Assembly (NCBI RefSeq): GCF_000186865.1 | Contig: NW_008705564.1 | Span: 1,903,494-1,967,493 of the forward strand | DNA from: Aureococcus anophagefferens | Taxonomy: Eukaryota > Sar > Pelagophyceae > Pelagomonadales > Pelagomonadaceae | DNA: 64,000 nt | Direction: 5' to 3' | Shown here: positions 6,103 to 37,054 of the stretch, in pieces | Numbering within the stretch: the first letter of the stretch is position 1 | Layout: every line of letters begins with the position of its first letter | Notes under the pieces: model-generated | What the model was told of the DNA's origin: nothing | Database searches by the model: none | The model's input: the letters and a program-made list of their open reading frames with translations, nothing else | Position numbers and translations under genes: made by a program

Positions 6103-7190
6103 ATGGGGCTCTTCTCTCCCGGCGAGGTGCGGTCCCTGGCGAAGCCCGCTGGGGCCGAGAACCTCGACACCCTCGACGACGTCGCCAACGCCGAGGCCCC
6201 GAGCGACCGGGGCGGCGTTTGCGGCGCGGGCGACGGCGGCGGCGACTGGCCCTACGTGGCGTCGGAGCTCGTCGGCGGCCTCTTCCACGTCTTCCTCGGC
6301 GGGGACCCCCTGGCGCGGTCCGGCGACCTGCGCGACGTCGCGTCCGAGGCCCACGTCGCGGCCACACTCCGGGACGTCGCGCGCCGCGTCGGCCGCGCGC
6401 CCGGCGGCCTCGGCGCGCTCCGCGTCGCCGCGCGGGTCCCCGGGCGGGCGTCGGCCGACGAGATCCTGGGCGCCGCGGACCCGCTCGTCGCCCTCGCGGC
6501 CGAGCACGCGGGCGAGCCCGTCGCGCGCGCCGTCTGCCTCAGGGCAGGACAAGAGAGCGAAATTCCCAACTTCAAAGGCTCCTTTCTCGGCCGTTTTCCA
6601 CTCGTTTCGGCTGATTTTTGGACGAGCGATCATCTCTCGGAACGGTCTCGAAGCGTGGATGCTTTTTTCGGAACGCGCGCGCGCGGAACACTCACGTTGA
6701 AGCGACGTTGAATCTCTCTTGTCCTGCCCAGGTCTGCCTCGAGGCGCTCGCGCGGCTCTGCGAGGCGTCGGCCGCCGCGCGGCGGCGCGTGTCGCGCGCG
6801 GAGCGCGTCTACGACGTCGTCAACCGGTCCCTCAAGTCGCCGCTCTGGCGCGCGTCGGCCAAGCACCCCAAGTCGCCCGCGCTCCGAGCGCTCCTAGCGA
6901 AGGCGTACCCGAATTACTACGAGCCCGAGGCGTCGCTCGGCTGCCGGCTGCTCATGCACCTGCTCCCCTGCGACCCGCCGCCGGGCGTCGACCTCGGCGG
7001 CATCGGCACGGCGCTGCTGATTTTACTGGACGGCACGCGCGACGCGAAGCGGCGGCCCATCGTCGTCGCGGCGACGTGCCTCGCGATGCTCTGCGCGACG
7101 GCGAACCGGACGGGCCTCGCGGCCGTCGACGGCGCGGGCGTCGCGAAGCTCGTCGAGGCCTGCCGGGGGCGGCTGCCCGTGCCGGACAAG

Positions 7191-7221
<31 letters not shown>

Positions 7222-10200
7222 GCGACGCGGCCGACTGCCCGCACCGCAAGCTCGACAAGGTCGAGCGCGACGCGTTCGCGGCCGCGTGCGGCAACTGCCT
7301 GCGGGTCTCGACGCGGTCCCCGCGCATGCTGCCGTTCCTCGTCGACGCCGACGCCATCGAGACCGTGCTCGTGCCGGGCCTCCTCGTCGGGTCGCCCGAC
7401 GACAAGGCGAACTCGGAGCGCGCGCTGCTCATGCTGTCGCTCGACGCGGCGACGGCCGCGGACGTCGCGCGGACGCCGGCGCTCGCGACCTTCGCGCAGC
7501 TCGACTTCGTCGCGGGCGGCGACGCCGACGACGGCCGCCGCGGCGCGTCGGCGGCGGCGAAGGCGCTCGCCGCGCTCGCGGACCGGGGGCTGGGCGTCGC
7601 CGTCGCGGGCGCCGTCGCGCGGCGCGACGCGATCGGCGAGCGGCTCGTCGCCAACGGCGGCGCGGCGCCGGCGCGCGTCCCGGACCTCGACGACTGCGCG
7701 GCGCGGGCCGCGCGGGCCGTCGCGGACGCGGACGCGGCCTTCGGCGACCGCGTCGCGTCGGACTGCGTCGCCGTGTGGCGGAGCAGCGGCACGGAGCGCG
7801 CGCACCGCCACGAGCTGTGTGGAAATCAAATCTTCAACCCGACTTCAATGTGCGCGTAATCGAACGGTTCGGACCAGACTCTTCAACTGTGCTTCGAGAA
7901 CTCGACGAGAGCAATCGATTCGTCCAAAAATCAGCCGAATCGACTTCAATTTGACTGAGCTAGAGATTTCTGAAGTTTGGCCCCGACGTCCCAGCTCACT
8001 GGTTGATTTCCACACAGGCCACGAGCCGACGCTCCTCGACGCGCTGCGGCGCCTCCGGGCGCTCGTGGCGCCGGACGCGCGCGCGCTCGCCATGCGGTCG
8101 ACGACGGCCGCGGCGACGATGGCGCTGAGCCCGCGCTTCGACGCGGACGACGACCCGCGGCTCGCCGCGCTCGAGGACCGGCTCGTGACCTACGGCTGCG
8201 TCGAGGCGCTGGGCCTGCTCATCGACATCCGCGTGTCGACGCCGCGGCCCAAGGACCACGAGGTGTCGCTCGCGGCGTGCGCGGCGCTCGGCGGCATCTG
8301 CCGCGCGCCCCTGGTCACCAAGGGCGACGGCGACCGGAAGCAGCCGCTCGCGCTCGTGCACCTCGCGAGCCGCCTCCTGGACCGGGACGGCCCGCTGCGG
8401 TGCTGGGGCTACAACTTCCTCGCGCTCGTGACCATATCGGCCGCGAAGCGCGCGCTGCACCGGCCCCGGGGCACGAGCCGCGTCTTCGAGGACGCGCTCG
8501 CGGAGGCCTGCAAGAAGGCCGTGAAGCGCGTGCCCAACGGCGACGAGCCCTTCGCGGCCGTCTGCGTCAAGGCGCTGACGACGCTCGGGGAGCTGGGGCG
8601 CGTCCAGTCGGCGACGGACGAGGCGGACACGAGGCGGCTGGTGGGGCTGCTGGGCTGGGGCGTGCCCGCGGACATCTGGTCGCTCCTGGGCGAGCTCTGG
8701 GGCTTCGACGTGCCCTGCGACGACGCCTTCGAGCAGCCGCCCCTCGTGCGCCACGTCGCCGCGGAGGCGCTCCTCGCGTTCGCGACGCGCGACGACGACG
8801 AGCGGCTGTGGCTGCAGGACGTCGCGGCCCACGGCGGCTGCGACGACCTGCTGGAGATCCTGAAGAAGGACGTGGCCCACGAGGCGGGCCGCGACGCGGC
8901 CTACGACCTGCTGGTCATGCTGAGCGAGGTCGACGGGCGGCGCCACGCGCTCATCGACGCGATCAAGAAGCGGCGCGGCGCCGTCTTCTGGGAGAAGCAC
9001 GAGCGGAACCTCAACGACGAGCGCGCGCTCAAGTCGGCGCTGCGGGCGCTCAAGGTCGAGGCCGAGGTCGCCTTCGAGCGCATCCAGAAGCGGCGCGACG
9101 ACCGCGCGTCGCGCGTCCGCGCGAACCCGGAGGCCGCCGCGCGCCTCGCGGCCGCCGCGGAGACCGCGGAGCAGGAGCTCCTCGAGCTCTGCGACGCCGA
9201 GGCCAAGGAGCGCGAGCCCAAGGCGTCGAAGAAGAAGAAGAAGAAGAAGAAGAAGGCGCCGCAGCAGCCCGACTCGCCCGACCGCGGCGACGCCGCGGCC
9301 GCCGCGGCCGCGGACGGCGGCGGCGACGGCGGCGCCGCGCCCGGCGACGGCGGCGCCGCGCCCGACGACGGCGGCGACGCGCCGGACGACGGCGGCGACG
9401 CGCCCGACGACGGCGGCGACGCGCCCGGCGACGGCGGCGNNNNNNNNNNNNNNNNNNNNNNNNNNNNNNNNNNNNNNNNNNNNNNNNNNNNNNNNNNNNN
9501 NNNNNNNNNNNNNNNNNNNNNNNNNNNNNNNNNNNNNNNNNNNNNNNNNNNNNNNNNNNNNNNNNNNNNNNNNNNNNNNNNNNNNNNNNNNNNNNNNNNN
9601 NNNNNNNNNNNNNNNNNNNNNNNNNNNNNNNNNNNNNNNNNNNNNNNNNNNNNNNNNNNNNNNNNNNNNNNNNNNNNNNNNNNNNNNNNNNNNNNNNNNN
9701 NNNNNNNNNNNNNNNNNNNNNNNNNNNNNNNNNNNNNNNNNNNNNNNNNNNNNNNNNNNNNNNNNNNNNNNNNNNNNNNNNNNNNNNNNNNNNNNNNNNN
9801 NNNNNNNNNNNNNNNNNNNNNNNNNNNNNNNNNNNNNNNNNNNNNNNNNNNNNNNNNNNNNNNNNNNNNNNNNNNNNNNNNNNNNNNNNNNNNNNNNNNN
9901 NNNNNNNNNNNNNNNNNNNNNNNNNNNNNNNNNNNNNNNNNNNNNNNNNNNNNNNNNNNNNNNNNNNNNNNNNNNNNNNNNNNNNNNNNNNNNNNNNNNN
10001 NNNNNNNNNNNNNNNNNNNNNNNNNNNNNNNNNNNNNNNNNNNNNNNNNNNNNNNNNNNNNNNNNNNNNNNNNNNNNNNNNNNNNNNNNNNNNNNNNNNN
10101 NNNNNNNNNNNNNNNNNNNNNNNNNNNNNNNNNNNNNNNNNNNNNNNNNNNNNNNGCCGGACGACGGCGGCGACGCGCCCGACGACGGCGGCGACGCGCC

Positions 10201-10777
10201 CGGCGACGGCGGCGACGCGCCCGGCGACGGCGGCGACGCGCCGCCGCCGCCGCCGGACGCGCCCGCGGCGCCGCGCGACGCCGCGCCCGAGGCCGCCGCG
10301 GACTTCCAGCCCGTCGTCGGCCGGCGCCGGGGCCGCCGCGCGCCCGAGCCCGCGGCGGCGCCGCCCGCGCCGCCGCCGGAGCCGGAGCCGGCGCCCGCGC
10401 CGCCCGCGCCGAGCCCCGCGCCGGAGCCCAAGGCGGCGCCGCCCAAGGGCGGCGCCGTCGTCGTCGTCGCGCCCGTGGGGGCCGCCTTCGTCTCCCGCGC
10501 GCCGGCCGAGCGCCGCGTCGCCGCGGCCGAGCCCGACGCCTTCGTGCCGCCGGAGTGCTTCTGCCCCATCAGCATGGCCCTCATGCAGGAGCCCTACCTC
10601 GCGACGGACGGCCACACCTACGAGCGCGAGTGCATCGCCGCGTGGCTCGAGAACCACGACACGTCCCCCCTGACCAACGACCAGCTCCCCTCGAAGATGA
10701 TCATACCCAACCACGCGCTCCGCTCCCTCATCATGACGCGCTTCCAGCACCGCGAGCACCCGCCGGACCTCTTCTAG
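6103..10777 (+). CDS. Large helical-repeat protein with C-terminal U-box
   Basis: Exons are 6103-6531, 6732-7806 and 8018-10777; both introns are introners and the phases join exactly. The long Ala/Leu-rich N-terminal part (VCLEALARLCEAS; RALLMLSLDAATAADVA) suggests ARM/HEAT-type helical repeats. An acidic and Lys-rich linker leads into a DAPDDGG repeat interrupted by an assembly gap. After the gap the frame changes, so the gap length is not exact. The C-terminus is a clear U-box (CFCPISMALMQEPYLATDGH...YERECIAAWL...TSPLTNDQL), the E2-binding fold of ubiquitin ligases. An E3 ligase whose repeats bind substrates is the likely role. The start at 6103 is the first ATG after the divergent promoter. 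Confidence 0.75.
6532..6731 (+). mobile_element. Introner 1 (family A), acting as intron 1 of the U-box gene
   Basis: The target duplication GTCTGCCT (6532-6539 and 6732-6739) flanks a 192-bp element with perfect 14-bp terminal inverted repeats GGGCAGGACAAGAG. The first copy of the duplication supplies the GT donor and the element ends in CAG. Removing 6532-6731 (200 bp) joins ...EPVARA to VCLEALA in frame. The element lies in the reverse orientation relative to most other family A copies, in gene-strand terms. Confidence 0.93.
7807..8017 (+). mobile_element. Introner 2 (family B), intron 2 of the U-box gene
   Basis: The duplication GCCACGAG (7807-7814 and 8018-8025) flanks a 203-bp element with terminal repeats CTGTGTGGAAATCAA and its complement. 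Exact restoration of the coding sequence (AHR-HEPTLL) requires a GC donor taken from the duplication and the element's terminal CAG as acceptor. The intron is 211 bp, the same size as two other family B introns in this window. Confidence 0.92.
9440..10155. other. Assembly gap inside a 21-bp coding minisatellite
   Basis: There are 716 undetermined bases. Both edges sit in the same repeat, encoding (G)DAPDDGG/GDAPGDGG units of about 21 bp that run from about 9345 to 9439 and from 10156 to about 10240. The reading frame before the gap does not match the U-box frame after it, so the gap size is nominal and the true array length is unknown. Confidence 0.95.
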
Positions 10778-10859
10778 GGAGCGCCGCGCCCGCGTAAGCC
10801 TCCTTTTCTTGGCTTGCGCTTGAAAAGCCCGCGTCCGACGGGAACCACAGCACATTTTT

Positions 10860-11753: not shown

Positions 11754-11813
11754 TGTTAGCCGGTCGCTGCGCCGGCGCGAGCTATCCTTCGGAGCCCAAA
11801 GCCCGCGAGACAA

Positions 11814-13902: not shown

Positions 13903-16392
13903 CTAGCGCTCGGGGTCGACGTAGCGGGGGAACGCGTCGCGGTCGCCGTCGTCGGGCCGCGCCGCGGAGGGCGACGCGAAGTAGGCCCGGTCGAGGGACC
14001 GGAGGAAGTCGAAGTGGAGCCGGCCCGCGCGCGTCGCGGAGCCCTCGAAGAGGGCCATGACGCCGGCGTCGTCCGCGAGGTCCGGCCGCGCGCCGCAGGC
14101 GTCGCCGCAGTCCACGGGCGGCCACGCGCGGTACCAGCCGCTCGACGCGTGCGCGTTCTCGTGCGCGGCCGCCGCGAGGACCTCGCGGTCGCGGCCGTCG
14201 CAGCCGCGGCCGGCGCAGAAGTCGTCGAGCGCCGCGTCGAGCGCGGCGGCGTAGGCCGGCGCGTGCGGGTAGCCGTCGACGCCGGCGATCTGGAGCCAGG
14301 CCTCCGTGTAGCCCTCGTCGACGTGGAACGTGCGCACGTCCTCGCCCTCGTCCGCGCCGAGCTGGAAGAGGCCGTTCGTGTTGATCTCCTCGAGGCGCCA
14401 GCCGCCGAGGTCCGCGTCCCAGAGCGCGTCGGGCGACAACAGCGCGAAGCGCCGCGACCGCCGCGAGAGCTCGCCGTCGCGCGCGCCGTAGACGCGCGCC
14501 TCGTGGCCGTGGAGCTCGTCCTTGGCCAGGAGGAGCGGCAGGAGCGCGGTCCGCTCGAGCGCGGGCCAGAGCTCGGCCTGCCACGCCGCCCAGGCCGCCT
14601 CGCCGCCGAGGGGCGGCGCCTCGCCGAGCCGGAGCTCCTCGAAGAAGCTCCGCCCCCCGCGGAGGCCGCCGAGGTCCGGCCGCGTCACGCCGGGGTAGTC
14701 GTAGGGCCACGGCCGCGGGAACGTCATGTGCTTGAGGCAGAACTCATTCGCCATCATGAGGATGTGCATGCACTTGGCCGGGAGCGTACTCGCGTTGCGG
14801 GGCAGGCCCCAGCCCTCGTAGTCGACGACGGAGATCTTCCTGCGGGGGGCGGCGGCAAAGGTCCGGGCCCGCGCGCGGCGGCGGCGGCGGCGCGGCGCGC
14901 GCGCGGGAACGCGACGTCGAGGACGTAGACCGCGAGGGGCTCGAGCGACGCGACGAGGGTCCAGAGCCGCAGGTCGAACTTGCGGCGGCCGAGCGTCGCG
15001 GGCCGCGTCACGTAGCGCTGCATCGTGAACTCGCCCGGCTGCTTCGTGTGGTGCTCGCGCTTCTTCTCCTCGAGCGGCGTCTCGCGCGTCGCCCACGCCG
15101 CGACGGCGCCCGCGCTCGCGAGGTCGGCCTCGAGGAGGGTCGCGAGGTGCATGCCCAGGCTCAGGTAGCGCCGCTGGGGCTTGACGATCCACGTCGACCT
15201 GCGCGGGGAACAGGGCGCGAGATTCCCAAGGCTCCTCCCTCGGCCGCGTGCCGCTCGTTTCGGCGCGCGTCGCGACGGGCGATCGTCTCTCGGAGCGCCC
15301 TCGACGCGGGGATGCCTTTGGAACGCTCGCGTCGAAGCGACGTCGCATCACCCCCGCGCCGCGCCGGCGTCGACGGGCCCTCGCGCGCGAGGAGGTCGAC
15401 GAGCGCGTCGATGCCTGTGTGGAAATCAAATCTTCAACCCGACTTCAATGTGCGCGTATTCAAACGGTTCGACCCAAGCTTCTTGGCTGTGCTTCGAGGA
15501 CTCGACGAGAGCAATCGACTCGTCCAAAAATCAATCGAATCGACTTCGATGTGACCGAGCTAGAGAATTCTGAAGTTTGGTCAGGACGTCCCAGCTCACT
15601 GGTTGATTTGCACACAGGTCGACGCCGCCCTCGACGGCGAACCGCGGCGCGCCGTCGACGAGCTTGTGGACCGCGTTGAAGGACGGCGTCGTCCAGGCGC
15701 AGAGGCCCGCCGCCGCCGCGGCGCCGAGCGCGCCGGCGTCGCGGAGCGACGCAGCCGCGCCAGAGCCGCGCGAACGCCTCCTTGTCGCCGAGGACCTCCT
15801 TGAGGCCGGGGATCGACGACACGAGGCTCCCCGCCGGCGCGAGGAGGTAGTTGTGCTCGTGCTCCGGCGTGAACTGGAGGCCCACGTAGCAGTCCCAGTC
15901 CATGCCCTTGGTCTCGAGCAGGCCCATGCGCCGCAGGAGCGGCGCGACGAAGTTCTCGAGGTCCTTCCGCGGGCCCGCGCGGAACTTGCGGCTCGACGCG
16001 CGCACGGGCCGCTGGACGTTCCCGCGGCGCACGAAGCGCTCGCCGCGGCTGAAGGGGAACGACGTCGCGGCCGCGAGGCGCGCCGTCGGCGCGGGCGTCG
16101 GCGCGGGCGTCCGCCGGCGGCCGCGGCGCCCGCGCTTCCCGCGGCGCGTGCCGTTGCGCGCCTTCGACGGCTTCTTCGCCCGCTTCGCCGTCGCGTTGCG
16201 CGGCGCGGGCGTCGGCGCGACCGTCGCGTCGTCGGCGGCGCGGCCGATGGCGAAGAGCTCGGGCTGCGACAGGCGCAGCAGCTGGACGCAGGACACGACC
16301 CACGCGCCGGCGAGCAGCGCGCCGACGAGCCACGCCGTCGTGCCGCGGCGCGCGCCGCCGCGCGCCGCGCGCCGCGCGCGCGTCGCAGGCAT
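13903..16392 (-). CDS. Type II membrane protein with tubulin-tyrosine-ligase-like domain
   Basis: Exons (descending) are 16392-15626, 15414-15375 (40 nt), 15198-14905 and 14839-13903, about 678 residues. An N-terminal membrane anchor (about 18-42) is followed by a basic Thr/Pro stalk. The TTL-like fold is marked by DWDCYVGLQFTPEHEHN, the STWIVKP ATP-grasp strand, RKFDLRLWTLV with PLAVYV, and FALLSPDALWDADLGG leading to LEEINTNG. TTL-like enzymes ligate amino acids to proteins, but the membrane anchor makes tubulin an uncertain substrate. Phases agree only if one extra base near 15759 is ignored, so exon 1 carries an apparent one-nucleotide frameshift. The third intron (14904-14840) needs a GC donor. 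Confidence 0.7.
15199..15374 (-). mobile_element. Introner 3 (decayed family A), intron 2 of the TTL-like gene
   Basis: The flanking duplication reads GTCGACGC (donor side, 15374-15367) and GTCGACGT (15198-15191). The interior still aligns with family A (CGAGATTCCCAA, GGCGATCGTCTCTCGGAGCG, CGTCGAAGCGACGTCG) but is shorter and GC-enriched, and its inverted repeats are largely lost. GT-AG splicing of these 176 bp joins LAREGP to STWIVKP in frame. Confidence 0.85.
15415..15625 (-). mobile_element. Introner 4 (family B), intron 1 of the TTL-like gene
   Basis: A 203-bp element with CTGTGTGGAAATCAA at one end and its near-complement at the other is flanked by GCGTCGAC (15625-15618) and GCATCGAC (15414-15407), one mismatch. 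On the gene strand the donor is GC and the acceptor is CAG, giving a 211-bp intron. The element is inverted relative to gene direction compared with introner 2. Confidence 0.9.
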
Positions 16393-18059: not shown

Positions 18060-20069
18060 TCACTTCTTCTCGTCGGCCGGGGCGTCGCCCTTGGCCGCGA
18101 GGGCGGCGACGGCGGCGTCGGCCTTGGAGTCGGCCTTGGCGTCCGCGCCGCCGTCGTGGTGCTTGTGCGTGAACCCGGACGCGCGGAACGCGCGCATCGC
18201 GGAGACCATGCGGCCCGCGAGCTTGAAGCGCTGGACGTTGGTCAGGGAGCGGCCGGACTGGACCTTGCGGAGCTTCGCCGGCGGGAGGTGGTGCTCGATC
18301 TCGTGCTCGTCGTCCTCGCCCGGGTGGCCGTGGCCGTGGTGCTCGTCGTCGTCGTTGTGGTGGTGCTCGTCCGTGTACTGGACCGTGTACTCGAGGTGGC
18401 CGTCGCAGAGGCTCCGCGTGACCTCGAGGACGATGGCGCTGTACCAGAGCGCCTCGTCGCGGGGCTGCGCCTCGACGCGGTCGCCGACCTCGAGCGTGTG
18501 CCAGTGGAACTTCTTGGCGATCTGCGCGCGGCCGCGGACCGTCGCGGCGGCGGCGGCGCGCGCGTCGAACGACGGGTCCCCCCCCCCCCCGCGGCGCGCT
18601 CGGCGCGCGCGCGCGACGCGTCCGAGCATCGCGCGAACCGACGGCGCCGCGACGGCGCGCGCGCGCCGCGACGTTCGGCTGGCGCGCGCGGGACCGGCGG
18701 TCGGCTTCGGCGCGGCCGCCGGCGGCGTCGAGGGGCACCCAGAGGTCCTTGCCCGCGTGCTCCTCCGTGTCCTCGTTGGTGATGTGGATCAGCGCGCGGC
18801 CCCGCTTCGCGTCCGCGTCCGTGACGACGCCCTCGCACCAGAGGTCCTCGCCGGGCGGGCGGCACCTGTGTGGAAACCGACCGGTGGAACGCGCCGTCCG
18901 GCAAAAACTTCAAACCTCTCGAGCTCGGCCAAATCGACGTCGATTCGGCTGATTCTTGGACGAATCGATTGCTCTCGTCGAGGCCTCGAAGCACAGCCCA
19001 AGAGTCAGGCGCAATCCGTTCGATTACGCGCACATTGAAGTCGGGTTGAAGATTTGAGTTCCGCGCGGGGCGGCACGTGACGATGTCGCCGACGACGAGC
19101 GGCTCGCCGCCGACGAACGCCGTCGCGCGCGGCGACACGGGCGTGTCCTCGACGGCCTTGTCGTCGTCGCCGTGGTGCGCGTCGTCGTCGCCGGGGCCGT
19201 GGTGGTGGTCGATGGCGCACTTGATCGCGTCGCGGCCGCCGACGGCCGCGAAGGGCAGGCTCGCGCGGTTGAACGCGTGGCAGGCGACGACGGCGTGGAA
19301 GGCCTCCTTCCAGCGCTTCACGGCCGTGGACCGCGCGCTCCGCACCTTGCGCACGCGGCTCGGCGCGACGTCGGCCTCGACGTCGGCCTCGCCGTCGTAG
19401 GCGACGTCGTAGCGCGGCTCGCCTGGGCGGGAAACGAAACTGTTCACACACGACGTCAATGCGGTTTCGACATGCTTTCTTCACGGTCTGAAAAGAGCTC
19501 GCCGAGAGAAAACGACTCGTCCAAAAATCAGCCCAAACGACTTCGATGTGACCGAGCTGGAGCCGTTTCGCCGGACGCGTCCATTCCGCGGGTCGTTTCC
19601 GGCGCGGCGGCTCGCCCTCGTCCCCGAAGTTCACGGCGTCGACGGTGCCGAGGAAGAGGAGGTGGGAGTGCTCCTCGCGCACCTGCACCGTGTCGCCGAC
19701 CTCGAGGACGCTCCAGCTGAGCACGCGGCGGCACGCGCCAGCGTCGACGACCTGGATGTCGTGGTCCCCAAAGTCGACGTGCGCGCCCTCGGCGTCGACG
19801 TGCGTGACGACGCCCTCGAAGTAGAGGCCGTCGACGGGCGCCTGGACGACGTCGCCGGCCGAGATGGCGTGCGGGTGCGCGTCGTGGCCGTCGCTGAGCC
19901 ACTGGTCGTACTCCTTCTTGAGGGTCGCGTAGAGCGCGTCGCGCTCAACATCGCTCCCGAGGGCCGGCGACTCGCCGTCGTAGCGCGCCTTGAGCCGCGC
20001 GTAGATCGCCTGCTCCTCGGGGTCGCTCGACTCCAGCGGCGCCTCCTTGGCCGACGCGCCGGCCCCCAT
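18060..20069 (-). CDS. Tudor/agenet-like multi-module protein, probably myristoylated
   Basis: Exons (descending) are 20069-19616, 19422-19077, 18865-18727 and 18521-18060, 466 residues with consistent phases. The N-terminus MGAGASAK fits an N-myristoylation signal; an upstream ATG at 20093 would remove it. Small beta modules of Tudor/agenet type recur (SAGDVVQAPVDGLYFEGVV, LEVGDTVQVREE, GDIVTCRPPGEDLWCEGVV, LEVGDRVEAQPRDEALWYSA). Two copies of a basic helix follow (VRKVRSARS...RWKEAFHAVV and LRKVQSGRS...RFKLAGRMV), each near a His/Asp-rich linker. Such modules often bind methylated or charged peptides, but membrane attachment would point elsewhere. The donor of the third intron (about 18726-18522) is uncertain. 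Confidence 0.6.
18866..19076 (-). mobile_element. Introner 5 (family B), intron 2 of the Tudor-like gene
   Basis: A 203-bp element (18866-19068) sits between copies of GGCGGCAC (18858-18865 and 19069-19076). Its 5' end on the gene strand reads CCGCGCGGAACTCAAATC, the family B terminus with several T-to-C changes, while the other end keeps CCACACAG. The gene-strand duplication GTGCCGCC supplies a GT donor. The intron is 211 bp and joins IVT to CRPPGEDL in frame. Confidence 0.9.
19423..19615 (-). mobile_element. Introner 6 (divergent family B), intron 1 of the Tudor-like gene
   Basis: The duplication GCGAGCCG (gene strand, 19615-19608 and 19422-19415) flanks a 185-bp element. Its interior matches family B (GACTCGTCCAAAAATCAGCC, CTTCGATGTGACCGAGCT), but its ends read TGGGCGGGAAACGA and the imperfect partner TCGTTTCCGGCGC. 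A GC donor and CAG acceptor restore GDEGEPRYD. Confidence 0.88.
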
Positions 20070-21205: not shown

Positions 21206-22542
21206 ATGGGCAACCTCTTGAGCTTCAGCGTGCCGCCGACGGCCGACGACCGCATCGTCAAGGCCATGCAGACCTTTGGCATGAAGCAGCGCGACATCGC
21301 CGTGCTCTGGTCGGTCTTCAAGAAGCACGACACGAAGCGCCTCGGCGTCATCTCGACGTCGGTCTTCTACACGGACATCCTCTTCACGCAGCGGACCCTC
21401 TTCTGCGACGGCCTCTTCGACCTCATCGAGGGCGCGGACCCGGAGGCCATCGACTTTGGCGAGTTCGTCGCGGCGATCACGACGTTCTGCTTCTTCGAGA
21501 TCCCGGAGATCCTGCAGTTCTGCTTCTACGTCTTCGACCGCGACAAGAACGGCTACATCACGCAGGAGGAGATGCGCCTCTTCGTCGACGCCATGCACTG
21601 CGGCAACATGTCGACGAACGTGCAGTACGCGCTCGACAACATCCGGTACGAGAACAGGGCGGGAAAAGAGTGATTCAAGGTCGCTTCGACATGAGTGTTC
21701 CGCGCGCGACCGTTCCGGAAAAGCATCCACGCTTCGAGAACGCTCCGAGAGATGATCGCTCGTCCAAAAATGAGCCGAAACGAGTGGAACATGACCGAGA
21801 TGTCAGTATCCAAAGTTGGGAATTTCCTGCCAGGTACAAGAAGGACGGCAAGTTCGACTTCGAGGAGTTCACGTCCATGCACAAGCAGTACCCCGCCGTG
21901 CTCTTCCCCGCCTTCTCCCTCCAGAACTGCATGATGACGCAGATCGGCGGCGAGGGCTGGTGGAACCGGAAGAAGATCGAGCTCTCGATGAAGAAGGAGG
22001 ACCTCCGCTCCGCGGCCGCGAACAAGGAGGTCAAGGAGAAGGCCGACGCCTACAAATACCGCGACGCCCAGATCCGAAGACACATGGGCTTCGTCAAGTA
22101 CCACGTCCTCCCCCACCACCGCAAGAAGTACTACGAGATCTACCCGCTCCCGCGCAAGTACCGCGCGCTCGAGGCCGCCAACGCCAAGGTCCACCCGAAG
22201 CTCGACGACGACGACGAGAACGACAGAAGCCACGCGCGCGTGGGTATTCGAACCTACACCGGACAGAAAACAGCACAGGGGAGGTCAATATCGTTCGATG
22301 TGTCAAACTGTAACGGCAATATATACGGGGCTGCCAAAATCGAATCGGGACGCGCACACCGCAGCCGCAGAGATCGAATCCGACAGCACGAACTCCTCAG
22401 ACATGTTCCGGCGCGCGCCGCGCGCGTGCGCCGGCAGAAGGCTGTGTTCCGGAGCGCGCGACTCCCGGCGCGTTCCGGCCGTTCCGGCGTACCGGTGCAG
22501 CCCCCAGACGCTGTTCCGGCGACGCCTGCCCTCGAAATTTAG
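21206..22542 (+). CDS. Myristoylated EF-hand protein
   Basis: Exons are 21206-21645 and 21834-22542 (382 residues if the frame is read to TAG 22540-22542). MGNLLS is a good N-myristoylation signal. The fold resembles calcineurin-B-like proteins, with degenerate N-terminal hands and one canonical loop (FDRDKNGYITQEEM, about 111-124). A further hand (KKDGKFDFEEF) is split by the introner and lacks the usual Asp at loop position 1. A long charged C-terminal part (RRHMGFVKYHVLPHHRKKYY) follows. The last 80 or so codons after PKLDDDDEND look non-conserved, so the true stop may lie earlier through an unseen intron. A Ca-responsive membrane adaptor is likely. Confidence 0.75.
21646..21833 (+). mobile_element. 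Introner 7 (family A variant), intron of the EF-hand gene
   Basis: GTACGAGA (21646-21653) and GTACAAGA (21834-21841) flank a 180-bp family A element with a shortened right end (GGGAATTTCCTGCCAG). GT-AG splicing of 188 bp joins DNIR to YKKDGKFD, restoring the EF-hand. One mismatch in the duplication suggests an older insertion. Confidence 0.9.
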
Positions 22543-23145: not shown

Positions 23146-26100
23146 ATGGCCGCCACGGAGTCCTTCGTCGCCGCGGCGCTCGAGGGTGGCACGCCATTCC
23201 GGCTGTACCGGCGCGGCGTCGTCGACGAGGCGGCCTGCTGCGCCGTGGGGTCGGCCATCGCGTCGGCGACGAAGGCGGCGGGTCCCGTGGCGGTGCAAGC
23301 GGAGCACTGCTTCAACGTCACGGCGGCGGCCATGAGCGCCGGCGACGCCCGGGCCGCGGCCAAGACGCTCGTGTGGCTGCTCAGCGAGACCTACGCGCCG
23401 GAGGACGTGGGCGCGGCGTCGTTCCTCGGCGAGGCCGTGAGCGTCGAGGTCGGCCCGCGGCCGGCGTTCGCGAGCGCGTGGTCGTCGACGGCCGTGCAGA
23501 TCGCCGAGGCCTGCGGCGTGTCGGGCCTGCGGCGCGTCGAGCGGAGCCGGCGCTACGCGTGCGCGGCCGGCGGCGCGCGGCTCGGCGCGGCCGCCGTCGC
23601 GGACCACGTGCACGACCGCATGACCGAGTGCGTCTACGAGGGCGGCGCGGCGCCCTTCTTCGCCGAGGCCGCGGCGCCCGCCGCGGACACGGCCGTCGGG
23701 ACCGTGGACGTCGTCGCGCGCGGCGCGGCCGCGCTCAAAGACGCGAGCGACGCGCGGGGCCTCGGCTTCGACGCGTTCGACGTCGAGTACTACGCGGACC
23801 TCTTCGCGACGAAGCTCGGCCGCGACCCGACGGACGTCGAGCTCTACGACATGTCCCAGTCCAACTCGGAGCACTCGCGCCACTGGTTCTTCTCCGGGCG
23901 CCAGGTCGTCGACGGCGTCGAGAAGGACAAGTCGCTCTTCCGCCTCGTCAAGGCGACGCTCGAGGCCGCCAAGGCCGCCGCGGCCCGCGACGGCCGGGAC
24001 GACGTGAGCGTCATCGCCTTCCACGACAACTCGAGCGCCATCGCGGGCGGCGCCGCGACGGTGCTCGTGCCCGAGGCGTGCGAGGCCGCGGACAAAGCCG
24101 TCCGCGGCGACCTCGGCGGCGCGCCGCCGCCCGCGGCCTACGGCCCGTCGCGGCTCGTCGAGACGCAGCGCACGCTCCACAGCCTGCTCACGGCGGAGAC
24201 GCACAACTTCCCCTGCGCCGTCGCGCCGCTGCCGGGCGCGGAGACGGGCGCGGGCGGGAGGCTCCGCGACGTGCAGGCGACGGGCCGCGGCGCGCACGCC
24301 ATGGCCGGCGTCGCGGGCTACTGCGTGGGCAACCTCCTGCTCGACGGCCACGCCATCGCCGGGGAGGATCCCTCGAGAGCCTACCCCGCGCACCTCGCGT
24401 CGCCGCGGCAGATCCTCCGCGACGCGTCCGACGGCGCGTCGGACTACGGCAACAAGTTCGGCGAGCCCGTCGTCTGCGGCTACTGCCGGTCCTTCGGCGG
24501 CGTCGACGCGGCCGGCGACCGCTGCGAGTGGCTCAAGCCCGTCATGTTCTCCGCGGGCGTGGGATGGCTCGACGCGCGCCACTGCGCCAAAAACGCGGCC
24601 GCGCCGGGCATGGCCGTCGTCAAGGTCGGCGGGCCGGCCTACCGCATCGGCCTCGGCGGCGGCGCCGCGTCGTCGCGCGTCTCCACGGCGGAGCGCGCGG
24701 ACCTCGACTTCAACGCGGTGCAGCGCGGCGACGCGCAGATGTTGAACCGCATGAACCGCGTGATCCGCGCGTGCGCGGAGCGCGGCGCGGCGAACCCCAT
24801 CGTGTCCATCCACGACCAGGGCTGCGGCGGCAACGGCAACGTGCTCAAGGAGATCGTCGAGACCCACGGCGCGCGCTACGATTTGGCGCGGCTCTCGCTC
24901 GGCGACGCGACGATGACGCCGCTCGAGCTCTGGGGCGCCGAGTACCAGGAGTCGAACGCGCTCCTCGTCGACCCTCGCGACATCCCCCTGCTCCGGGCCA
25001 TGGCGGAGCGCGAGCGCTGCCACGTCGACGTCGTCGGCGAGGTCGCCGCCGACGGCCGCGTCGTCGTCGTCGACAGCCGCGGCGGCTCCGACGCGAAGAT
25101 CGTGGACCTGCCCCTGGAGCTCGTGCTCGCGGACATGCCCAAGAAGGTCTTCGAATCGACGACGCCGGACGTGGCCCCGACGCCGCTAAACGTCGCGGCC
25201 GCGGCGCTCTTCGGCGGCGGACCGCCGGACTTCCGGGCGGCGCTCGAGGGCGTTTTAGGCCTGCCCGCGGTCTGCTCGAAGCGCTTCCTCGTGCACAAGG
25301 CGGACCGGTCCGTGACGGGCCTCGTCGCGCGCCAGCAGTGCGTGGGGCCCTTCCAGCTGCCGCTGAGCAACTGCGCGGTCCTCGCGCGGAGCCACTTCTC
25401 GACCGAGGGCGTCGCCGTCGCCGTCGGCGAGGCGCCCCAGCTCTCGGCGCTGAGCCCGGCGCGCATGGCGCGCCGCGCCGTCTGCGAGATGCTCACGAAC
25501 CTCGTTTCCGCGCCCGTGAGCGACCGCCGCGACGTCCGGCTCTCGGCGAACTGGATGTGGGCCGCGAAGCTGGAGGGCGAGGGTTCCCGCATGTACGCGG
25601 CCTGCGAGGCCATGTGCGACGCCCTGATGGCCGCGGGCTGCGCCGTCGACGGCGGCAAGGACTCGCTGTCCATGGCCGCGAGCGACGGCGCGGGCGCCGT
25701 CGTCAAGGCGCCGGGAGCGCTGACGCTGACGGCGTACGCGCCGTGCGTCGACGTCGCGCGCGTGCTCACCTGCGACCTCAAGGCCGACGACGGCGTGCTC
25801 GTCCTCGTGGACCTCGCGGGGGCGCCGACGCTCGACGTCGGCGGCTCGGCGCTCGCGCAGGCGCTCGGGCAGCTCGGCCGCGACGCGCCCGAGTCGGACG
25901 TCGAGGCGACGGCCAGGGCGGGACAAGGGTGATTCAACGTCGCTTCGACGTGAGTGTTCCGCGCGCGCGCGTTCTAGGAAAAGCATCCACGCTTCGAGAC
26001 CGTTCCGAGAGATGATCGCTCGTCCAAAAGTCAGCCGAAACGAGCGGAAAATGGCCGAGAGAGGAGCCTTTGAAGTTGGGAATTTCGCACCCTTTTCCTG

Positions 26101-27491
26101 CCCAGGCGACGGCGCGCGCGTTCGACGCCGTGCAGGCCCTCCACAAAGCCGGCGACCTCCTATCGCTCCACGACCGCAGCGACGGCGGCCTCGTGACCTG
26201 CGTCCTCGAGATGGCCTTCGCGGGCGGCCGCGGCGTGACCGTGGACGCGCCGCGCGCGGCGACGACGGAGGGCGACGTGCCGCCGGCCTGGGCCGCGCTC
26301 TTCCACGAGGCGCCGGGCCTCGTCCTCGAGGTCGCGCCGGAACGCGTCGCCGCCGTCCTCGCCGCCTTCAAAGCCGCGGACGTCGACGCGGCCGTCGTCG
26401 GCCGGGCGACGCGCGAGCGGACCGCGCGGATCGCCGTCGCGGGCGCCGCGGTCCTCGACGCGCCCGTGCTCGAGCTCTGGGCCGCCTGGGAGGCGACGGC
26501 CTTCGCCATGGAGCGCGTCCACGGCCGCGACGGCGCCTGCGTCGACGCGGAGATGGCGACGCTCGCGGCGCGGACGCCGCCGAAGTACGCGGTGCCCTTC
26601 GCCGCGGCGCCGGCGGCCACGACGCCGTCGCGGAACGCCAAGCCCGTGGCCATCCTGCGCTGCGAGGGCTCCAACGGCGACCGCGAGATGGCCACGGCCT
26701 TCCACCTCGCGGGTCTCGAGCCCTGGGACGTCGCCGTCGCGGACGTCGCGTCCGGCGCGGTGACGCTCGACCGGTTCCGGGGCATCGCCTTCGTCGGCGG
26801 CTTCTCCTACGCCGACGTGCTCGATTCGGCCAAGGGCTGGGCCGGCGCCATCCGCTTCAACGACGCGCTCCGGCCCCAGTTCGAGGCGTTCCGCGCGCGA
26901 AGCGACGTCTTCTCGCTCGGCGTCTGCAACGGCTGCCAGCTCCTCGCGCTCCTCGGCTGGGTCCCGGGCCTCCCGGCCTGCGACGCGGCCTACGAGACGC
27001 AGCCGCGCTTCGTCCACAACGCGTCGCGCAAGTTCGAGTCCCGCTGGCTCTCGGTGGCCGTCCTCGAGTCGCCGGCCAAATTGCTCGCGGGCATGGCCGG
27101 CGCGACGCTCGGCGTCTGGGTCGCCCACGGCGAGGGCCGCGCCCACTTCCCCGACGCCGACGTCGAGCGCGCCGTCTTCGACGGCGGCCTCGCGCCCGTG
27201 CGCTACGCGGACGACGCCGGCGAGCCGACGGACGCGTACCCGTTCTGCCCGAACGGCGCGGCGCGCGGCGCGGCCGCGCTCTGCTCGCCCTGCGGCAAGC
27301 ACCTCGCCATGATGCCCCACCCGGAGCGCTGCGTGCTGCCCTGGCAGTGGCCCTACAAGCCCCCGGGCCTCCCGGGCCTCGAGGCCGCGTCGCCCTGGAT
27401 GAAGCTCTTCCAGAACGCGAAGACGTTCCTCGACGCCGTCGACCGCGACGCCGAGGACGACTGCGCGCCCGTGCCGGGCTGCTGCAACTGA
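23146..27491 (+). CDS. purL: Phosphoribosylformylglycinamidine synthase (FGAM synthase)
   Basis: Exons are 23146-25905 and 26106-27491, 1381 residues, matching the large single-chain PurL of eukaryotes and gamma-proteobacteria. It converts FGAR, glutamine and ATP to FGAM in de novo purine synthesis. Visible hallmarks are DMSQSNSEHSRHWFF, the LTAETHNFPCAVAP segment, GRGAHAMAG, SIHDQGCGGNGNVLKEI, VDGGKDSLSMA and LHDRSDGGLVTC. At the C-terminus a class I glutaminase domain carries the nucleophile Cys in GVCNGCQLLA and the HGEGRAHF and MPHPERC motifs. ATG 23146 is chosen because MAATESF begins the conserved part; ATG 23110 is in frame upstream. It is convergent with the RING gene. Confidence 0.95.
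25906..26105 (+). mobile_element. Introner 8 (family A), intron of purL
   Basis: GCGACGGC (25906-25913 and 26106-26113) flanks a 192-bp family A element with inverted repeats GGGCGGGACAAGGG and CCCTTTTCCTGCCC (imperfect). A GC donor and CAG acceptor remove exactly 200 bp and join SDVE to ATARAFDAVQ, restoring the conserved PurL sequence. This is the cleanest case here that the GC donor is real, since the protein is highly conserved. Confidence 0.95.
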
Positions 27492-28514: not shown

Positions 28515-31500
28515 TCAGGGCGCGGGCGGCTTCTTGGGCTTGGCGGACATGTAGAAGCCGCGCGCGGTGTCGACCTCGTCCTCGTTGGAGCCGCTCCTCT
28601 CGGGCCGGCCGATGAGGTCGTCGAAGGACTCGGAGTCGTTCCGCGCGCGCGGGTTCGACGGCGACACGGCGCTCGCGGGCTCGACGGGCGCCTTGCGCGG
28701 CGCGCGCGCGGGCCCGCGCGGCGCGGCCGCGGGCCTCGCGGCCGCGGCCTTGAGCTCCGTCGCCTTGGCCTTGCGGTCGGCGTCGCGCTGGGCGCGCTGG
28801 GCGGACCGGAGCGCGTCGGCGAAGGCCGCGAGGAAGGCGTGCATGGTCTCGAAGACGTAGGTCGGCTGCCCCGCGGCCTGCGTCGACTCGCCGAAGTACT
28901 CGCAGAGCGCCTTGAGCCGGAAGCCCATGGGCCCGAGGTGCTTCACGCTCAGGTACTCGAGCTTGCGCTCGGCCTGGCCCGTGAAGTCGCGGAGCCGCGC
29001 GACGGCGCGGCCCCGCGCGGCCGCGCACGCGCCCGCGCCCGCGGCGCCGCCGTCGTCTAATCGCTTCGACGGGCTGCCCCCGAAGGACGCCTGCGGCCGG
29101 TAGCCGCCCCGCGAGTCCTCGGCGTTCATGTCCCGCGCCTCGCCGCGCACGAGGGCCCGCTCGGCGCCGCGGAGGTCCCGCTCGGCCTCGCGGAGCACGT
29201 CGCGCGCGCGGACGACGCCCGACCGTAAATCGCCGACGGCCTTCTCGTGCTCGCCGATGGGCACGCGCGCGGCCGCGGCGACGGGGCCGCCGAGCGTGCG
29301 CACGACCTCCTCCATGGCCGCGCCGTGGCCCCGCTTCAGCAGGCCCTGGACGACGTAGTCCAGCACCGTCGTCCGCCGGTCGCGGCCCTTCGTCTTCACG
29401 ATGGCTAGGAGGCTTCCGAGGCGGATGCCCCGCGCGTCGCCCTTCTTCGTGCCCGCGTTCATGACGTTGCCGACGGCGAGGATGCGCTGCAGGATGAGCG
29501 TGAGGCCCCGGCTCTTGACGAGGATCGCCGCGGCCGTCGTCACGGACCCGCAGGCCCGCTCGACGTCCGCGACGTGGTGCGCGAACGCCGCGCGCGACGA
29601 CGCGGCGTCGAGGTAGCGCGCGTGCATGGGCTCCCGCGCGGCGCTGAGGACGAAGCGCTCCGCCGTGGACAGGGCCTTCTCCGCGGCCCCGGGGTCGTCG
29701 GCCGCGGCGACGTGCTTGAGCACGGAGTCGCACTCGCTTCGCGTCGGGAGCACGGCCTGGAGCCGCTCGAGGGCGTCGGGCAGGAGGCGGGGCGACAGCT
29801 CGGCGACGGCGACCCAGAGCAGGTCGAAGTCGCCCTTGAAGGCGCGCTTGAACTTGGAGAGCGCGATCGTCATGTTCTGCGCGCGCTTCCCATCGACGAG
29901 CGTCGACGCCTTCGCGCTCGCGGCCCGGGGCCGGCGCTGGGTGACGTCGACCTGGCTCTCCTTGGCGGCGAAGATGTCGTTGAGCATGGCGACGTCCTCG
30001 TGGTCGAGCGCCGCGTGGTCGCCCGGCGCGTCGTCGTCGTCGTCGTCGAGGCCGCCGTCCTCGGGCGCCTTGGACGCGGGCGTCGCCCAGACGGAGTTCT
30101 CGGCGTTGGCCGCGCCGTCCATCTTCTCCCAGTGGAGGGCGATGGTCGCGCGGCGCTGCTTGCGCTTGCCCGCGGCCGCGGGCGAGTGCTTGTCGGGCGA
30201 CGCGCCGGCGGCGCCGCGGCCGTGCGCGGCCCGGAAGCGCTCGACGACGCCCGCGTCGACGTCGTCGGCGGCCATCTTGGACAGCACGCCCTCGACGGTG
30301 ACGCCGAACTTGCGCATCTTCAGGTAGGGCGCCAGCGCGGCCGCGTCGTCGTCCGCGGGCGCCGCCGGCGGTGCCGGTGCCGCGGCCGCGGCGCCGCCCG
30401 CGCCCCCGCGGAGCGCGGCGTCGATGTCGGCCTTGGAGCAGCGCTCGGCCTTCATCTTCGCCTCGACGGCAGCGGCGGGGATGCCCATCTTGAGCATCTT
30501 CTTGAACTTGGCGACCGTTTCGTTGTCGTCGGACGGCGGGAAGGGCGTCTGCGCGACGCAGTCCGGCGACTTCGACGGCGCGTCGCCACCGCCGCCGGGC
30601 GTCGACGGCGCGCCCGCGCCGCCGGAGCCGCCCCCGGCGCCGGAGCCGCCGCGGCTCAGGTTCGCGCCGAGCGTGTCGAGGTCCTTGGCGACGCGCCTCG
30701 CGACGATGTCGCTCCAGCCCTTGTCGACCTGGGCAGGACAAGAGTGATTCAACGTCGCTTCAACTTGAGTGTTCCGCGCGCGCGCGTTCCGGGAAAAACA
30801 TCCACGCTTCGAGACCGTTCCGAGAGATGATCGCTCGTCCAAAAGTCAGCCGAAACGAGTGGAAAACGGCCGAGATCGGAGCCTTTGAAGTTGGGAATTT
30901 CGCTCTCTTGTCCTGCCCTGTTGTCGACGAGCGCCGCGGCGAGGTCCTTCTTCGCGAGGCCGCTCACGAGCAGGCTCACGGCGACGCCGTAGGCGATCTG
31001 CGCGTCCTCGTCCTCCATCAGATCCCCGGGGACCGCGTCCGCGGCGTCGTCCGGTGTTTTCGTCGCGACGTCCGCCCACGCGTTCTCCGCCGGCGACGGG
31101 TCGCCGCCGTCGATGTCCATGGACAGGAGCGCCGCGAGGCGGTCCGCGCCGGCGCTCCTCTTGAAGATGCCCGACCCCCGCCGCTGCTTGGCCGGGGAGG
31201 GCGCGTCGAATTCGAGGGCCCGCGGCGACGCGACGAAGACGTCGGCCTCCTCGGGCCGCGGGCTCTCGCAGACGGAGCAGGTCCCGAAGTCGCCCGCGCC
31301 CGCCTCGCGCACGTTCGTGAAGGTGCACGTCGGGCAGGTCCAGCACTCGTTGCCCGCGGTCCGGTCGGCCTCGTCGTCCTCGTCCTCCAGGTGGATGAGC
31401 ATGACGTCGCCGTCGCCGCCGTCCGAGTCGCCGCCGTCGCTCCCGCTCTCCGGCGGGCTCGCGGTCCGCAGCGAGTCGTTGTCCGGGAGTCCCACGGAGA

Positions 31501-33501: not shown

Positions 33502-35609
33502 ATGGGCTACACGACCGTCGACCCCAACGAGACCGTGGAGATCCGCATGGGCGCGTCGGGCCCCGCGGCGCGGCCGCCGACGACCGTCGTGGAAATCTTC
33601 AAGAAGACCGTGAAGGAGTGCGGGTCCAAGGTGAGCATGCGCTGCGAGCGCGACGGCGCGTGGAAGGAGTGGACCTGGGACGGCTACCACGCGGACGTCA
33701 TGAAGGTCGCCAAGGCGCTGCTGGCCCTGGGCGTCAAGGAGCGCGACGCCGTCGCCATCATCGGCTTCAACTCGCCCGAGTGGGTCTTCACGTGGATCGG
33801 CGCGGTGCTCATCGGCGCCATGGGCACGGGCATCTACGCGACGAACGGGCCCGACGGCGTCGCCTACGTCGTCGAGCACAGCAAGGCCAAGGTCGTCGTC
33901 GCCGAGGGCGCCAAGCAGCTCGCCAAGTTCCGCGAGGTCGACGCGGCGCGCCTCGCGTCCGTGCTCGCGTTCGTCGCGTACCTGCCCGAGGAGGCGACGC
34001 CGGCGCCCATCGGGAGCGCCCAGGGCATGAACTGGGCCGGCTTCCTCGCCTCGGGCGCCGGCGTGTCCGACGACGACGTCGAGGCGAAGGCGGGCGCGGT
34101 CGTCGCGGGCCAGTGCTGCTCGCTCATCTCAGGGCAGCAAAAGGGTGATTCAACGTCGCTTCAATGTGAGTGTTCCGCGCGCGCGCGTTTCGGAAACAGC
34201 ACCCACGCTTCGAGAGCGCTCCGAGAGATGATCGCTCGTCCAAAAATCAGCCGAAACGAGCGGGAAACGACCGAGAGAGGAGCCTTTGAAGTTGGGAATT
34301 TCGCACCCTTTTGCTGCCCAGGCTCATCTACACTTCCGGCACGACGGGCAACCCCAAGGCCGTCATGATCAGCCACGACTCGCTGACCTGGACGGCCCAC
34401 GTGGGCTTCATCGACGTCTTCAAGTGCACGTCGGAGGAGCACGTGCTCTCCTACCTGCCCCTGAGCCACATCGCGGGGCAGATGATGGACGTCGTCGCGC
34501 CGATACTGACGGGCTGCACGCTCCACTTCGCGCGGCCCGACGCGCTCAAGGGGTCCCTCAAGGACACGCTCGGCGAGGTGCGGCCCACGGTCTTCTTCGG
34601 CGTGCCCCGCGTCTGGGAGAAGTTCGGCGAGGCCATGAAGGCCAAGGCCGCGACGCCCGGGTCGATGAAGGACAAGGTCGCGACGTTCGCCAAGGGCTGC
34701 GGCGCGGCCAAGTACGCCGCCGCGGAGCAGGGCGACCCGGACCCGAACAACTGCATGGCGAACCTCGTCGCCGGCTCCATCTTCGGCAAGATCAAGGGCG
34801 CGCTGGGCCTCGACCGGTGCCGCCTCTTCGCGACGGGCGCGGCGCCGATCACGACGGACCTCCTCAAGTACTTCGGGTCCCTGGACATCAACATCCTCGA
34901 GCTCTTCGGCATGTCCGAGGTCACGGGCCCGACGAACATGTCCACCGCGGACAACTTCCGCGTCGGCAAGTGCGGCCTCCAGATCCCGGGCACGGAGACC
35001 GCGTGCGCGAAAGACACGTCCGAGGTCATCTTCCGCGGCCGCCACGTCATGATGGGCTACATGTACAACCAGGAGGCCACGGACAAGACCATCGACGCCG
35101 ACGGCTGGCTCCACAGCGGCGACGTCGGCTCCATCGACGAGGACGGCTACCTCAAGATCACGGGCCGCATCAAGGAGATCCTCATCACCGCCGCGGGCGA
35201 GAACGTCGCGCCCGTGCTCATCGAGGACGAGATCAAGCGCCAGCTCGACTGCGTCGCCAACGCCATGGTCGTCGGCGACCAGAAGAAGTTCCTCACGGTG
35301 CTGCTCACGCTCAAGACGAAGCCCGACGCGGACGGCCTCCCGCTCGGCACCGAGCTCGCCAAGGACGCGGCGCTCTGCGGCTGCGCGACCATCGCCGACG
35401 CCGCCGCGTCCGCGGACTACAAGAAGATGATCGAGGACGGCCTCAAAAAGGCCAACGCCAACGCCATCTCCCGCGCGCAGAACGTCCAGAAGTTCGCGAT
35501 CCTCCCCGTGGACTTCACGCAGGAGGGCAACGAGCTCACGCCGACGATGAAGCTCAAGAGGAAGGTCGTCCTCGAGAAGTACGCCGACGTCGTCGCCGGC
35601 CTCTACTGA
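33502..35609 (+). CDS. Long-chain acyl-CoA synthetase (bubblegum/ACSBG type)
   Basis: Exons are 33502-34121 and 34322-35609, 635 residues. The AMP-binding P-loop (YTSGTTGNPKAVMISHDS) spans the splice junction. Other adenylate-forming signatures are VLSYLPLSHIAGQMMD, FFGVPRVWEKF, ELFGMSEVTGP, GWLHSGDVG and DGYLKITGRIKEILIT, followed by GENVAPVLIEDEIK. The combination and length fit the ACSBG subfamily, which activates long or very-long-chain fatty acids with ATP and CoA. No signal peptide or membrane helix is seen. It is convergent with the next gene (171 bp). Confidence 0.93.
34122..34321 (+). mobile_element. Introner 10 (family A), intron of the acyl-CoA synthetase gene
   Basis: GCTCATCT (34122-34129 and 34322-34329) flanks a 192-bp element with inverted repeats GGGCAGCAAAAGGG and CCCTTTTGCTGCCC (perfect 14 bp, differing from introner 1 by compensating changes). 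A GC donor and CAG acceptor remove 200 bp and restore CCSLIYTSGTTG, the catalytic P-loop. Confidence 0.95.
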
Positions 35610-35780
35610 GCGCCCCCGCAGGAGCCGAGTTCCATCCGGCCAGCTCCCCTCCCCCGCCGCTCGCGCGGAGCCCCATCGGTAACGCGGCGACGCGCCTCCC
35701 GCCCTATCACGCGCTCTTACCGCCCCGGTGCGTGCGCGCACGCGCGGAGCCCCAAACGCGCCGACGCGCCCCCCGCCCCA

Positions 35781-37054
35781 TCACGCGCTCTTACCGCCCC
35801 GGTGCGCGCGCGGGTCCGCGGGCAGCTTCCGGTGCCCGGCCGCGGGGCTCGCGGTGCGCACGGACGCGCGGACGTGGTCCTCGAACGCGACCTTGCGGAG
35901 GATGACGTCCGCGAGGGACGTGTCCTGGCCCGCGAGGATGGCGAGGCCCGCGTCCTGGGGCTTGGCGGAGCCCTTGCCGACCGCGGGCCGGAAGTCGACC
36001 TTGCCGGACTCGCGCTTGGCCCTGAACTTGGCCGCGAGCAGGTCGGGCCTGGGCGGGACGAGGGTGCGACGCGCCCAACTTTGGAGGGTCCTCTCTCGGT
36101 CGGTTTCCACTCGTTTCGGCTCGTGTTTGGACGAGCGATCGTCCCTGGGAGCGCTAAAGAAGCGGGGATCCGTTCTCTGGAACGATCGCGCGCGGCACGC
36201 GCACGTCGAAGCGACGTCGCGTCGCCCGCGTCCCGCGCCGGGTCGCGCAGCGCGTCGCGCGCGACCTCGCCGCCGTCCTTGGCGATCCACGTCGTCATCA
36301 TCGTGCGCCGCGTCGTGCGCCGCCGGGCCACGGGCTTCGGCGGCGGCGCCCAGGCGAGGCCGCCGACCCACTTGTCGTAGCCCCACTTGCGCTCGCGCGA
36401 CCCGCGCTTCCGCTTCGTCCGCGCGCGCTCCTCCTCCACCAAATACTCGTGGCACACGAGGAAGTCCTCCTCGTCGACGCGGCTCACCGTCGCGAACTCG
36501 CGCGCGAGGTCCTCCTCCGCCGGGCTCAGCAGCTTCTGCTCGCCCCGCTTGCCGAGCGCGCGCTTCGTGACGTGCAGCGGCCGCAGCGGGAGCACGAACG
36601 GGTTCCGGCTCCCGAGGAAGAACCCAAAGTGCTTCACGGGGTCGATGTCCTGGAGCACGTCCATGTCGTCGCGCACGGTAAGCAGGTAGTTCTCGCCGCG
36701 GTGGAGGAAGGGCCGGTCGCCCACGGACACGCGCCAGCTCCGGATCGCCATGACGACGGCCAAGGTCGCCCTCCGGATGCCGATGAGCGCCCTGAGCGCC
36801 TTGGACTTGGGCCAGGGCTTGTTCTCCTTGTCGTACTCGATGACGTCGTAGATCTCGTCGAGCAGCACGTTGCGCTCGACGATGCGCTCGATGATGTGCC
36901 GCTCCTGGTGGTCCGTCTGCTCGAACTGCGTAAAGTAGACGTTCGACGTCGGGAGCTCGCCGTCGAGGAGCCGCTCCTTCTCCGTTCGTTTCCGCCGCAC
37001 GACGCGCCGCAGGGTCTGGACGTCGCGGTAGGGCGACGGCACGGCGCCGGACAT
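35781..37054 (-). CDS. Conserved-looking protein of unknown function
   Basis: Exons (descending) are 37054-36249 and 36048-35781, 357 residues. The first 230 residues look folded (LPTSNVYFTQFEQTDHQERH, HIIERIVERNVLLDEIYDVI, YLLTVRDDMDVLQDIDPVKHF). The remainder is basic (RARTKRKRGSRERKWGY) with a C-terminal tail (FRPAVGKGSAKPQDAGLAIL). No catalytic motif or membrane segment is seen and I do not recognise the family. It shares an 80-bp divergent promoter with the sulfotransferase gene. Confidence 0.65.
36049..36248 (-). mobile_element. Introner 11 (decayed family A), intron of the 35.8-kb gene
   Basis: The gene-strand duplication reads GCGCGACC (36248-36241) and GCCCGACC (36048-36041). The 192-bp interior still aligns to family A (GGTTTCCACTCGTTTCGGCT, GGACGAGCGATCGTC) but has drifted toward GC and its inverted repeats are imperfect. 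A GC donor and CAG acceptor remove 200 bp and keep the frame (RDAL-PDLLAAKF). Confidence 0.88.

Follow-up and report, generated by a model that had tools for sequence, protein, structure and literature searches.

The alga Aureococcus anophagefferens carries, in a 64,000-nucleotide stretch of contig NW_008705564.1 (positions 1,903,494 to 1,967,493; hereafter the window), eleven short repeated elements, e1 to e11, each lying inside a coding gene. Judged from their sequence, these elements are very probably introners, in this case non-autonomous cut-and-paste DNA transposons of 168-203 bp that make introns. A first-pass annotation of this DNA had proposed such a match to DNA-transposon-like introners, and the match is upheld by inverted ends, 8-bp duplications, an AG brought by the element, a co-opted donor, a large number of copies and the small number of copies that could not be spliced. 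Support for the introner reading comes from the exact-excision anatomy with frames restored at 11/11 elements, from genome-wide counts of the donor dinucleotide and of orientation, from Pfam domains that cross the junctions, and from relatives that lack the inserts.

In the mechanism that we envisage, a transposase supplied in trans would insert the element and duplicate 8 bp of target. The element carries the 3' AG in its terminal CAG, the upstream duplicate begins with the GT or GC (together GY) that would act as donor, and taking out the element together with one duplicate restores the reading frame. Insertion would not discriminate between the two strands of a gene. Judging from the counts given below, spliceability, perhaps combined with a preference for genes, would decide which copies survive.

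Eleven elements inside coding genes

The elements fall into two related families, A and B, which have part of their core in common and differ in their ends (BLAST matches of ~70-150 bp). Family A comprises e2, e4 and e5, is 203 bp long and has the ends CTGTGTGGAA...CACAG, with e5 diverged at one end. Family B comprises e1, e7, e8, e9 and e10 together with the diverged e3 and e11; five of these seven are 192 bp long and, where not diverged, their ends in gene sense are CAGGGC...GCCCAG. CAG faces outward at both ends of family A and at only one end of family B. Target duplication and inverted ends, two marks by which introners are recognized, are both found. All eleven elements annotated in the first pass are present where they had been placed and within the lengths proposed. 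They are listed here with the start of each intron given as its first base in plus-strand coordinates; r and f denote the two orientations of the family-B body relative to the CA...AG polarity of its ends.

e1: intron 6532..6731, element 6540-6731 (192 bp), plus strand; family B, body r, GT-AG, duplicate GTCTGCCT exact
e2: intron 7807..8017, element 7815-8017 (203 bp), plus strand; family A, GC-AG, duplicate GCCACGAG exact
e3: intron 15199..15374, element 15199-15366 (168 bp), minus strand; diverged family B, GT-AG, one mismatch; TTL-domain gene
e4: intron 15415..15625, element 15415-15617 (203 bp), minus strand; family A, GC-AG, one mismatch
e5: intron 18866..19076, element 18866-19068 (203 bp), minus strand; family A, GT-AG, duplicate exact
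e6: intron 19423..19615, element 19423-19607 (185 bp), minus strand; diverged, A-like in its core and B-like at its CTGGGCGGG end, GC-AG, duplicate exact
e7: intron 21646..21833, element of 179 bp, plus strand; family B, body f, GT-AG, one mismatch and an extra base; EF-hand gene
e8: intron 25906..26105, element 25914-26105 (192 bp), plus strand; family B, body f, GC-AG, duplicate GCGACGGC exact
e9: intron 30729..30928, element 30729-30920 (192 bp), minus strand; family B, body r, GT-AG, duplicate exact
e10: intron 34122..34321, element 34130-34321 (192 bp), plus strand; family B, body f, GC-AG, duplicate GCTCATCT exact
e11: intron 36049..36248, element 36049-36240 (192 bp), minus strand; family B, body f, GC-AG, one mismatch

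With one duplicate included, the introns span 176-211 bp. The 8-bp duplication that had been ascribed to every element is exact in seven (e1, e2, e5, e6, e8, e9 and e10) and carries one mismatch in the other four (e3, e4, e7 and e11), with one extra base in e7. Exact removal leaves GT-AG borders at e1, e3, e5, e7 and e9, and GC-AG borders at e2, e4, e6, e8, e10 and e11. The frames on either side agree after such removal at all ten gaps, e3 and e4 sharing one, as worked out by hand arithmetic, and the earlier claim that excision restores the reading frame therefore stands. In the TTL-domain gene, an exon of 40 bp (window 15375-15414) separates e3 from e4.

Because the window has a GC content of 71%, at which open frames mean little, we used a codon-usage segmentation trained on the window without any splice rule. 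It calls every one of the eleven elements a non-coding gap, bordered by coding segments of a single strand, and in 11/11 cases that strand is also the GY..AG strand of the element. The segmentation lists 24 same-strand gaps, 10 with elements and 14 without. As a control, the signature of GY-8bp...AG-8bp was sought in the 14 element-free gaps, one of which is a run of N, and was found in none of them. Some chance signature pairs also occur in the gaps that hold elements, and the gap shared by e3 and e4 shows only approximate pairs. The codon model set the frame in the e3/e4, e10 and e11 genes, where the longest open frame was the wrong one.

Pfam domains span the junctions of e3 (TTL, residues 35-137 of an e3/e4 gene piece whose first nine residues were read in a wrong frame and fall outside the match), e7 (an EF-hand pair) and e10 (AMP-binding, in an acyl-CoA ligase gene), and an FH2 domain lies downstream of the junction in the e9 gene. 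No Pfam match was obtained for pieces of the genes that hold e5/e6 and e11. The host gene of e8 encodes phosphoribosylformylglycinamidine synthase: the protein read at 22.6-25.9 kb shares 98% identity with one A. anophagefferens protein of that name, and 89% and 77% with two further ones, the lower values apparently due to differing gene models. A homologue search for the gene of e1 and e2 returned none that scored, and these two elements are therefore supported by codon usage, reading frame and duplicates.

Related proteins show insertion polymorphism, another mark of introners, at the protein level only. Four relatives of the e8 gene product (P0001-P0004) read into e8 and then end (EATARAGQG). 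P0007 is unbroken across the e8 site, and its N-terminus is a translated family-B introner joined directly to SDARGLGF; the C-terminus of P0008 is a translated family-A introner following GGGPPD. Three different sites in a single gene thus carry translated introners. A further protein, P0005, is continuous across e8 and may represent a complementary DNA or an empty allele. At e10, the insert falls just before YTSGTTG, and nine of the ten best relatives, including P0121 at 99% identity, are without it. Extra residues at this position occur only in the NCBI model P0122, and at e8 the NCBI model P0006 is without the residues VE that are present in P0001-P0005. Both models look mis-spliced in a way that avoids the GC donor.

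These results bear on the proposal that the elements are ordinary copies of a miniature inverted-repeat transposable element (MITE), surrounded by chance by long open frames in a GC-rich genome, and that splicing is over-interpreted. Most frames are open at 71% GC, such that open frames alone prove little. However, codon-usage segmentation, Pfam domains across junctions and relatives of the same genes concur on strand and frame, and GY lies far above background genome-wide. We regard this explanation as exceedingly improbable.

Only four weak BLAST matches (E 0.002-0.004) lie outside the elements, near 5324, 12961, 18155 and 24878. A scan of the window for any inverted ends with a duplication gave 378 hits, mostly attributable to chance at this base composition, and was set aside in favor of an analysis specific to the introner ends. 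A 21-bp tandem repeat occupies 9276-10240 and is broken by 716 N (9440-10155).

The donor rule across the genome

In the A. anophagefferens genome (49.05 Mb, 86 contigs), exact ends of family B number 1598 for CT and 1235 for CA, and there are 280 exact left ends of family A. Near-identical, intron-like copies are numerous and lie in unrelated genes. In sampled copies the duplication is exact in 44/54 of family A, 25/28 of family B with body r and 10/10 of family B with body f. Duplicates of 9-10 bp instead of 8 bp seem to be present in the family-B copies L116, L118, L119, L121, L125, L128 and L133. Some pairs of copies have identical flanking octamers (G000:C9:1299992 and C14:941367; C26:403946 and C66:26519; C38:148019 and C38:148573), and are perhaps duplicated segments or alleles.

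Eight bases out from the exact CA ends of family B, GY is found at 1180 of 1235 (95.5%), against a background of 18-20%. From the 55 CA ends without GY, we read 29 individually from sequence, e7 included. Two of these belong to a single 479-bp element, L109, described below. Among the remaining 27, 20 have GY at a shifted duplicate or at one of 9-10 bp, three have no far end that could be found, one is ambiguous, and three (L110, L131 and L134) have clean duplicates without GY.

The last three copies weigh against the introner reading, as do two further results. The mirror dinucleotide, RC, lies next to the element at 385 of the 1235 ends (31%) compared to 21.6% in coding sense (p 5e-15), and searches of the genome with PF05699 (the hAT transposase domain) and PF18758, the transposase families that were sought, gave no match, with controls that were silent as well. 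The RC excess is also what favors the proposal that the GY rule reflects the target-site taste of a transposase without any filter by splicing. Such a taste, being symmetric, would raise both ends alike, yet GY stands at 95.5% and RC at 31%, and the GY side of family-A copies tracks the coding strand in 50/50 cases. We thus consider target-site taste very unlikely as the source of the rule. The RC enrichment may instead reflect a weak symmetric target preference that adds to the splicing filter and that cannot explain the GY rule.

The first-pass annotation had also claimed that no element lies in a spacer. None of the eleven does, although within the window this absence is not significant, given that spacers make up 16.8% of the interval (P=0.13). 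Genome-wide, with spacers at ~17%, some 14% of copies would be expected to lack GY if they survived at random; only 55/1235 were found, and the scarcity of spacer copies is therefore supported at that scale. A 200-kb stretch taken without selection, in which 26,834 bases are N, holds 11 pieces detected by BLAST, and none of them is flanked by non-coding sequence on both sides. Same-strand coding sequence lies on both sides of six pieces and on one side only of the other five, four of which adjoin another piece.

Orientation in families A and B

For family A, 60 loci on contigs C1, C2, C3 and C4 were chosen solely by their exact left end. They yielded 62 parsed copies, 54 of which were kept after eight with ambiguous duplicates or ends had been dropped. 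Among the kept copies, GY is found on one side only in 21, on the other side only in 18, on both sides in 15 and on neither side in none. The coding strand, scored from flanking codons with the candidate intron removed, could be called in 50 of the 54 (four gave no call). These copies divide evenly, 25 in each orientation, and GY is on the sense side in 50/50. Scored by the same rule, six of the eight dropped copies have GY or RC at the best-guess place and show nothing beyond that; one dropped copy, L064, shows neither until shifted by one base, and two dropped copies are incomplete. By these sequence-based calls family A is strand-indifferent, as would be expected if both ends carry an acceptor.

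Family B is polarity-locked, with the acceptor end found downstream. GY is on the AG side at 28/28 loci with body r, which are the nearest kin of e1 with e1 itself included, and at 10/10 loci with body f. At the r loci, among which L002 and L005 resemble one duplicated site, the coding strand agrees in 22/28, with six uncalled and none opposed. Contig C1 carries 72 CA and 96 CT family-B ends, which form 60 inward pairs within 600 bp. All 58 pairs of introner size (107-197 bp) join one CA to one CT end, and a 437-bp pair is a pairing across two neighboring copies; 12 CA and 37 CT ends have no partner. The sole CA-CA pair within 600 bp on this contig is L109 (G000:C1:618576-619054), which has CAGGGCAGCAAAAGGG at both ends and a body unlike that of the introners. 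It is possibly a relative with ancestral, unspliceable ends. Considered as an autonomous partner, it proved to be a 479-bp element with a different body and without matching duplicates, and was rejected.

Spread at the RNA level has been proposed for fungal introners: an intron, once excised, enters another transcript by reverse splicing and returns to DNA through copying. Such spread would account for a strong bias toward genes and spliceable sites. The 25:25 orientation of family A is not predicted by reverse splicing of a single RNA strand, however, and DNA transposition is what 8-bp duplications and inverted ends are typical of. This route is most unlikely to have produced the elements.

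Exact patterns give 689 family-B copies with body r and 293 with body f. A tree of 63 bodies trimmed by 22 nt per end (47 r and 16 f) needs five changes of orientation, and the f copies form one clade in 0/200 bootstrap trees, in a bootstrap that has not settled. A single f clade is not rejected by the approximately unbiased (AU) test (p 0.066). Sampling for the tree was uneven: it drew 53 rows from 66 BLAST matches, 13 having been dropped for incomplete ends, many r copies are nearest kin of e1, e1 itself is entered two times, once as L001, and ten of the f copies were chosen for being f. Repeated flipping of family-B bodies is suggested. Tentatively, and at somewhat less than an even chance, the body may have undergone several inversions, with the terminal bases on which splicing depends, the donor-side CA and the acceptor-side AG, kept in gene sense throughout. 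Flips could arise if one inverted end recombined with the other. Alternatively, the ancestor may have had CAGGG at each end, and either end might have gained an acceptor independently by one base change. If flipping did occur, by either route one transposon body would have become an intron maker more than once.

Relation to known transposons and introners

MITEs of the hAT type have an 8-bp duplication, as do the window elements, and CAGNG termini. One of the two family-B ends, CAGGG, is of this kind; the other is CTGGG and both family-A ends are CTGTG, such that the ends of family A do not fit. A repeat of 1-10 kb that encodes the transposase might have the ends CAGGGCAG...CTGCCCTG. Two inverted CA ends ~3.3 kb apart on contig C9 were considered as such a partner and turned out to belong to two distinct introners that flank ordinary reading frames. 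Scans of viral contigs gave no exact match to a family-A end or to the shared core.

Introner elements were reportedly described in A. anophagefferens by Huff, Zilberman and Roy (Nature 538:533, 2016). Those introners and the window elements share the species, inverted ends and duplications, and in both the element brings one splice site and the duplicated target is co-opted for the other; we see no difference in kind. PMC9481584 cites Huff et al. 2016 for introners of this species, and PMC7789003 discusses them. According to PMC9860276 (Fig. 2), introners of Aureococcus sp. TARA_AOS_82_MAG_00129, of the same genus, likewise have an 8-bp duplication; both splice sites lie within those elements, which lengthen the transcript by 12 bp, whereas the window introners appear to co-opt their donor and leave no extra bases. 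A search of the literature within reach, which did not extend to Huff 2016, found no paper on introners in either orientation. Introners in A. anophagefferens are already known biology in a known host. The additions worth keeping are a strand-indifferent family A, a polarity-locked family B and possible flips, for which we claim no priority.

GC donors occur at 6/11 introners in the window, 14/28 family-B copies with body r, 6/10 with body f and 16/39 one-sided family-A copies. Annotators should thus be warned that about half of introner donors are GC. Public protein predictions that contain a translated introner, such as P0007 and P0008, offer a cheap route to insertion polymorphism. Mass intron gain through introners is well documented, and families A and B constitute a natural experiment in one genome, in which freedom of orientation follows which ends can be an acceptor. 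Their comparison helps to tell insertion at the level of DNA from the reverse splicing of RNA. It also points to spliceability, more than a symmetric target taste, as what sets the survivors.

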